37,639 bases of DNA from an uncultured Pseudomonadota bacterium (GTDB taxonomy: Bacteria; Myxococcota_A; UBA796; GCA-2862545), in NCBI GenBank assembly GCA_903861005.1, contig CAIOSP010000033.1:1-37639 (forward strand). The letters are read 5' to 3'. A program made the translations under genes and the position numbers. A model generated the notes under the pieces. The model worked only from the letters and a program-made list of their open reading frames with translations, was not told the DNA's origin and searched no databases. Of this stretch, positions 32,608 through 33,741 are shown in pieces (the first letter of the stretch is position 1; every line of letters starts with the position of its first letter).

Positions 32608-33741
32608 CTACCGCCCGCCCGGCGAGCTCGACGCGATCTTCACCCTCCGCCTGAGGTCCTCCAGCCCGGCGGCATCCCCCGCCACCACGGCGGCCCGCGC
32701 CTGCCTCATGACCTCCTGGAAGAAGGTTAGGTTGTGCAGCGTCAGAAGCCTCTTTCCGAGCAGCTCCTCACACCGCACCAAGTGCGCCAGGTAGGCCCGG
32801 CTGAACCGGTTCGCGGGGCTCTCGGGCAGGCCAGGGTCCAACGGCCCCGCGTCGTCCTGGAAGCGCTTGTTCTTCAGGTTCAGGCGACCTTCCCAGGTGT
32901 ACGCCTGCCCGTGACGCCCCATGCGGGTCGGCAGCACGCAGTCGAACAGGTCGATGCCGCGCACGATCGCCTCGACGATGTCGTTCGGGTGGCCCACACC
33001 CATCAGGTAGCGCACCCGATCGGCGGGCAGTCGAGGCGCTGCGACCTCGATCATCGACACCATCGCGTCGTGGCCCTCGCCCACCGACAGGCCGCCGATC
33101 GCGTAGCCATCCAGGTCGAGCGACGCGATCTCCTCGGCGTGCTCGGCGCGCAGGTCCGGGAACATGCCGCCCTGGACGATGCCGAACATCGCGGTGCGGT
33201 CGGCGTGACGGCGGGCGAGCAGCGCGCGCTTGAGCCAGCGCGTGGTGCGCGCGGTGGAGGCGATCACGCGCTCGCGGCTGGCCTCGGCCTCGATGCACTC
33301 GTCGAGCACCATGGCGACGTCCACGCCGAGCGTCTCCTGGATCTCCACCGCCACCTCAGGGGTGAGATGCCGCCAGGTGCCGTCGAGGAGCGATCGGACT
33401 GTCGCCCCTTCTTCCGTCACTTTCAGGTGATCCTTCAAGGAGAACACTTGGTAGCCGCCGCTGTCGGTCAGGATCGGGCCGTCCCAGCCCATGAAGCGCT
33501 GGATGCCGCCCAGCGCCTGCACCCGGGCGTGACCGGGGCGCTCCCACAGGTGGTAGGTGTTGGCCAGCACCAGCGTCGCGCCGGACGCGCGCAGCTCGGT
33601 GGGGTCGATGCCCTTCACGGTGCCGAGCGTGCCGACCGGCATGAAGGCGGGCGTGGGCACGTCGCCATGCGGCAGGTGCAGGACGCCCGCGCGCGCGGCG
33701 CCCACGGTGCCGACGAGATCGAAGGAGGAAGCACGGGTCAT
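32608..33741 (-). CDS. tgt: Queuine/preQ1 tRNA-ribosyltransferase lacking the zinc-site cysteines
   Basis: A 377-residue Tgt that exchanges guanine 34 for preQ1 in tRNAs with GUN anticodons. Catalytic residues are present: Asp93 in LTDSGGYQVFSL, Asp147 in LDEC and the nucleophile Asp267 in FDCVLPTR; the preQ1-site GGLSVGE and MGVG motifs are also intact. The zinc site is not: the usual pattern LDPxCxCxxC reads LDPGLPESPA, with Leu305, Glu307 and Ala310 in place of Cys, while His336 (LTLHNL) remains. The following SRAYLAHL is normal, so this is substitution, not frame loss. The ATG overlaps the queA stop by four bases (ATGA). Confidence 0.95.
   Translation of the reverse strand: MTRASSFDLVGTVGAARAGVLHLPHGDVPTPAFMPVGTLGTVKGIDPTELRASGATLVLANTYHLWERPGHARVQALGGIQRFMGWDGPILTDSGGYQVFSLKDHLKVTEEGATVRSLLDGTWRHLTPEVAVEIQETLGVDVAMVLDECIEAEASRERVIASTARTTRWLKRALLARRHADRTAMFGIVQGGMFPDLRAEHAEEIASLDLDGYAIGGLSVGEGHDAMVSMIEVAAPRLPADRVRYLMGVGHPNDIVEAIVRGIDLFDCVLPTRMGRHGQAYTWEGRLNLKNKRFQDDAGPLDPGLPESPANRFSRAYLAHLVRCEELLGKRLLTLHNLTFFQEVMRQARAAVVAGDAAGLEDLRRRVKIASSSPGGR

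Follow-up and report, generated by a model that had tools for sequence, protein, structure and literature searches.

A queA-linked tRNA-guanine transglycosylase without its zinc-binding cysteines, and recurrent loss of the zinc site in Opitutales

Introduction

Zinc is regarded as a hallmark of tRNA-guanine transglycosylases (TGTs) (PMC6165067), and one paper, citing Chong et al. 1995, states that TGT activity requires the metal (PMC9508795). Dimer contacts sit in the zinc subdomain of the enzyme (PMC4425180, PMC5395182), and an aromatic dimer hot spot consisting of F92, W326, Y330 and H333 was described for the homodimeric TGT (PMC5395182); the dimer contacts in the subdomain are a target of inhibitor work. 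Another tRNA enzyme, glutamyl-tRNA synthetase, likewise has a zinc-binding domain; in some bacteria this domain is retained and functions with no zinc (PMC4381286), but the enzyme is an unrelated protein, and dispensability of the metal was tested there by experiment.

In the open-access papers searched, naturally zinc-free Tgts are not described. A link between the queuosine pathway and metal homeostasis has been drawn, and a zinc-free Tgt would, if true, leave one zinc-dependent step fewer in it. Zinc-free Tgts occurring throughout a clade would show what the metal does and what replaces it, and natural examples are ready-made proteins for a direct test of the need for zinc.

The present study concerns a tgt gene in a stretch of DNA of 37,639 nucleotides from an uncultured bacterium (the window). 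Its product shares the catalytic and preQ1-specificity residues and, by prediction, the fold of the Tgts of Z. mobilis and E. coli, but, unlike these, has no CxCxxC motif, so that zinc cannot bind in the known way.

Results

By curated cut-offs, the product of the window gene (Table 1) is a tRNA guanosine(34) transglycosylase, with matches of 426.8 bits to TIGR00430 (curated cut-off 306.75) and 454.6 bits to PF01702 (cut-off 26.3). The zinc loop, which usually takes the form PLDPxCxCxxCxxFSRAYL, reads PLDPGLPESPANRFSRAYL. C305 is replaced by L (codon CTG, 32829-32827), C307 by E (GAG, 32823-32821) and C310 by A (GCG, 32814-32812), and H336 alone is retained of the CxCxxC plus His zinc site. 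The motif is complete in all 73 comparison Tgts, a reference set from other bacteria. The residues of the catalytic Asp pair and of base binding, D93, D267, D147, Q190, G217 and E222 (D102, D280, D156, Q203, G230 and E235 in Z. mobilis) are present, the positions of preQ1-type specificity (C149, V220 and E222) are canonical, and so is the PTRxxR motif that reads the anticodon. At the level of sequence positions, the dimer hot spot stays aromatic (F83, F313, Y317 and H320), as in Z. mobilis but with F and not W at position 326 of the latter, and the K43/E326 positions are retained. An earlier note on this DNA had claimed that L-P-E-S-P-A replaces the three zinc cysteines, that catalytic and substrate residues remain, and that an intact queA lies next door. 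Alignment and codons confirm the first claim and the second is true of all residues tested, while queA is indeed intact and overlaps tgt as in a translationally coupled operon.

Table 1. Position of tgt, its former zinc site and neighbouring genes in the window
Feature	Position	Strand	Basis
tgt (class A), 377 aa, putative zinc-free tRNA-guanine transglycosylase	32608..33741	-	TIGR00430, PF01702
Former zinc loop, residues 305-310, L-P-E-S-P-A replacing C-x-C-x-x-C	32812..32829	-	Alignment
H336, zinc-ligand position still present (H349 in Z. mobilis)	32734..32736	-	CAC codon; alignment
queA, 335 aa, upstream of tgt, 4-nt ATGA overlap	33738..34745	-	
yajC, which usually follows tgt in the order, here about 17.5 kb off	14772..15053	-	
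secD, next in the usual queA-tgt-yajC-secD order	12417..14762	-	
secF	11132..12454	-	

Among genomes of the window's order, class A tgt lies next to queA, and yajC and secD mostly come after it. In the window, some 17.5 kb (15054-32607) lie between tgt and the yajC-secD-secF genes, which are near tgt in most relatives and are here on the same strand. QueA and QueG are both encoded in the window genome. No match for tgt of either class or for queA was obtained in G001, the sole same-genus relative compared (85% completeness), in which QueG is present. G013:C4, G015:C32 and G019:C78 each carry a QueA-like gene that is divergent (E about 1e-45 to 1e-48); it is a second copy in the first two genomes and the sole QueA match in G019.

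The AlphaFold model of the window Tgt has a mean pLDDT of 92.8, with 92/97/95 over residues 301-330; the corresponding values of a zinc-bearing relative, predicted with the same sequence set, are 95/98/95. Superposed on the Z. mobilis TGT (1pud), the model gives Z 52.1 and rmsd 1.7 over 366 residues, with 46% identity, and a TIM-barrel TGT fold is predicted. The model shows that the window sequence fits the predicted TGT fold; stability without metal is a separate matter, of which AlphaFold confidence is weak evidence, because metals are not modelled and the family fold tends to come back.

All three cysteines are also gone from the class A Tgts of G002 (LPNSPA) and G006 (VPASPA), which share a replacement loop of the form [LV]-P-x-S-P-A with the window genome (G000, LPESPA). 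Trees built without the zinc columns unite the three in one clade, with support of 89 in one and 87/85 in another, the latter being below the starred level. Taken most simply, this would mean one loss in the common ancestor, after which the new loop was long conserved. A sequence error, with the cysteines kept in close relatives, had been named beforehand as what could undo the finding; the related Tgts instead show a loss shared by a monophyletic trio. Changes at the dimer hot spot are seen in two of its members (H320Y in G002; F313M and Y317A in G006). The remaining class A Tgts of the family with a readable loop keep CxCxxC; G004 has a deformed zinc loop (CIGPCC), and in G016 the helix after the loop is deformed. 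Among the motifs read, no further zinc-free Tgt was found in the order beyond the trio, and in a 284-genome sample of the phylum the top matches outside the order (best-scoring loci read) keep the motif. The loss is not an oddity unique to the window genome, as G002, G006 and Opitutales (see below) are also zinc-deficient. Ribosomal protein L36 (L284-L303), found in one copy per genome with a match, is without the canonical zinc ligands in those members of the family that were read; this form also occurs in lineages with a zinc-bearing Tgt, and general zinc sparing was therefore rejected as the cause in the trio.

A second Tgt of the window genome (G000:C1:102377-103414, L001), termed class B, belongs to the same family and retains the catalytic residues. 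It differs from the window Tgt in its intact CTCSTC, in lying away from queA and in forming a clade of its own, and the two are 48% identical. No conserved queuosine gene was seen beside class B among the clusters listed. Both classes are present in nearly every genome of the order. Of the two, G011 possesses class A alone and G019 class B alone. Because class A adjoins queA across the order and class B does not, the window tgt is the regular queA-linked orthologue and class B an old extra paralogue. The earlier note had held that a second Tgt with the cysteines would overturn its claim. Such a gene formally exists, but it is a separate paralogue and not the same gene repaired, and a recent repair copy or replacement was rejected on account of its distance. 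As side observations, class B, here L001 and its counterparts in most of the order's genomes, carries P271Q, changes at W86 and S117Y relative to the family consensus, and class B evolves more slowly than class A in the window's family. In G006 the class B gene (L062, G006:C223) is truncated at the end of a contig; its motif is IDCEAT, with two of the three cysteines gone.

Outside the phylum, a search of named genomes yielded an additional match beyond the 73-Tgt reference set, L220 of Opitutales (Verrucomicrobiota), in which the zinc cysteines are missing (LENYAS) and which is the sole Tgt match in its genome. A Tgt match was obtained in 46 of 52 sampled genomes of the Opitutales order; the main Tgt is zinc-deficient in 36 of the 46, and in 35 at least two cysteines are gone. 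Every QueA-bearing genome (31/31) has a zinc-deficient main Tgt, which is the single match with the query used in 30 of them, G113 having a second. On the tree without the zinc columns, the state of the site changes at least six times, which points to about five separate loss events spread over two phyla; the groups concerned are the window trio, a 28-member Opitutales clade, G070/G095/G111, G066/G093/G109 and G085/G104. Replacement loops vary (DNYTC, IDSYAS, INNYTT, LPCKAS, LPAPAS), the first cysteine position being mostly occupied by a large hydrophobic residue. Three groups have Leu-Pro there, namely the window clade and two subclades of Opitutales (RLPAPAS/RLPPSAS and RLPCKAS), and the loops of some groups thus appear to converge. 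As in the window Tgt, two or three cysteines are lost in the Opitutales enzymes and the tested catalytic residues and H336 are kept; in contrast to it, many keep C310 (DNYTC), there is mostly one Tgt match per genome, and no class B paralogue was found. All 39 zinc-deficient Tgts aligned have D93, Q98, D147, C149, Q190, G217, D267 and the two arginines for the anticodon loop, R273 and R276. H336 and N337 are invariant across the 39 aligned sequences, and because of this invariance H336 seems to serve a role beyond zinc binding.

An FDC[VT]HPTR-type Tgt is seen in Opitutales without a QueA match (G066, G069, G072, G075, G078, G085, G088, G089, G092, G093, G097, G104, G106, G107 and G109), and the zinc site is kept in some Tgts of this type and lost in others. 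The genomes listed may salvage queuine.

The window Tgt deviates at five of the 81 columns in which the 73 Tgts of other bacteria show a conservation of at least 97%, three of the five being the zinc cysteines; G002 and G006 deviate at 12 and 8 of them, respectively. The ratio of class A to class B pairwise distances has a median of 1.95 in the window's family (f1) and 1.31 in other families. That of the window gene, 1.77, is near the lowest of the family, and the loss was thus not accompanied by an acceleration. Compared with ten family members, the window tgt has a pN of 0.23-0.27 and a pS of 0.46-0.69, with dS near saturation, which indicates that it is under purifying selection. Pseudogene decay is unlikely in view of the intact frame, a rate like that of zinc-bearing relatives and the small number of changed columns, and a simple pseudogene was rejected. 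The alternative raised in the earlier note, that the enzyme is drifting, finds no support in this gene. A mildly relaxed constraint on class A is possible, as class A changes at about twice the rate of class B in this family and the hot spot is altered in G002 and G006.

Discussion

It is quite probable, judging from sequence comparisons, that the product of the window gene is a functional Tgt, which would replace G34 by preQ1 in tRNAs with a GUN anticodon without structural zinc, acting ahead of QueA and QueG. The C-terminal subdomain with the dimer contacts would keep its fold by the packing of a hydrophobic, proline-containing loop, in which Leu at the first cysteine position would stand and which would replace metal coordination, and the enzyme would remain an active dimer. 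The variant is most likely an active enzyme with a zinc subdomain that folds without metal. Because about five independent losses are indicated in two phyla, the zinc-free Tgt appears to be a recurrent natural variant, a pattern beyond what a single window could show. It is likely, too, that Tgt became zinc-independent on each of these occasions by means of a self-packing loop and that zinc is not needed for preQ1 transglycosylation. The repeated losses, with every tested catalytic residue kept, suggest that the metal is dispensable in Tgt. The zinc-free state had been ascribed to this lineage; the loss is real, but recurrent rather than lineage-specific. As for the zinc-independent fold that had been proposed, it is favored by the trio with its conserved loop, the coupling to queA and the QueA-bearing Opitutales genomes, activity being the part that we infer.

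Against this reading speak the published zinc requirement of TGT (PMC9508795), the altered hot-spot residues in two of the three clade members, the support of the trio below the starred level, and the zinc-bearing class B Tgt, which could take over the work. In the last case the window gene would be a redundant copy in slow erosion, with class B performing the modification and selection on class A and its zinc site relaxed. The presence of a zinc-bearing second Tgt, the greater class A distances in family f1, and the deformed or altered loop of G004, helix of G016 and hot-spot residues of G002 and G006 agree with this explanation. It is nonetheless unlikely: frames are intact in three genomes, the window ratio lies near the lower end of its family, purifying selection is indicated, and the replacement loop is itself conserved. 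Moreover, class B of G006 has likewise lost cysteines, and a second Tgt match is absent from the majority of Opitutales genomes.

Eukaryotic QTRT1 and QTRT2 form a heterodimeric pair. If class A and class B did the same, the metal might be needed in one subunit only, an arrangement compatible with the co-occurrence of both classes throughout nearly the whole order and with the dimer contact within the zinc subdomain (PMC4425180, PMC5395182). We consider it improbable, however, since both classes possess full catalytic sets, their genes are unlinked, either can occur without the other (G011 and G019), class B of G006 is itself zinc-deficient, and the zinc-deficient Tgts of Opitutales are mostly without a partner.

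More doubtful still is a shift of class A to another substrate, be it a base or an RNA, queuosine no longer being made. Tgt relatives with altered motifs in the order tell us that diversification occurs, but C149, V220, E222 and PTRxxR are canonical in the window Tgt, and its gene is coupled to queA. Although the assemblies of the window genome and of its relatives are drafts, an artefact of sequencing, assembly or binning can be rejected with near certainty, since the loss is common to three separately assembled genomes (G002 and G006 included), tgt lies on a 37.6-kb contig with its neighbours in frame, and two or three base changes separate Cys (TGC/TGT) from each of the three window codons, so that a base-calling error is not credible.

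Other Tgt types were also encountered. A third type (L052, L101, L104 and L107, as well as L323 of an Opitutales genome) has the motif FDCILPTxxAQRG, which reads FDCIIPSQLAQRG in L323, and lacks the arginine of PTR by which the anticodon loop is read. Two divergent Tgts, L071 (G010:C33) and L090 (G019:C144), display FDSVAPTREARRG, LDQC and an altered GGLSVGE motif.
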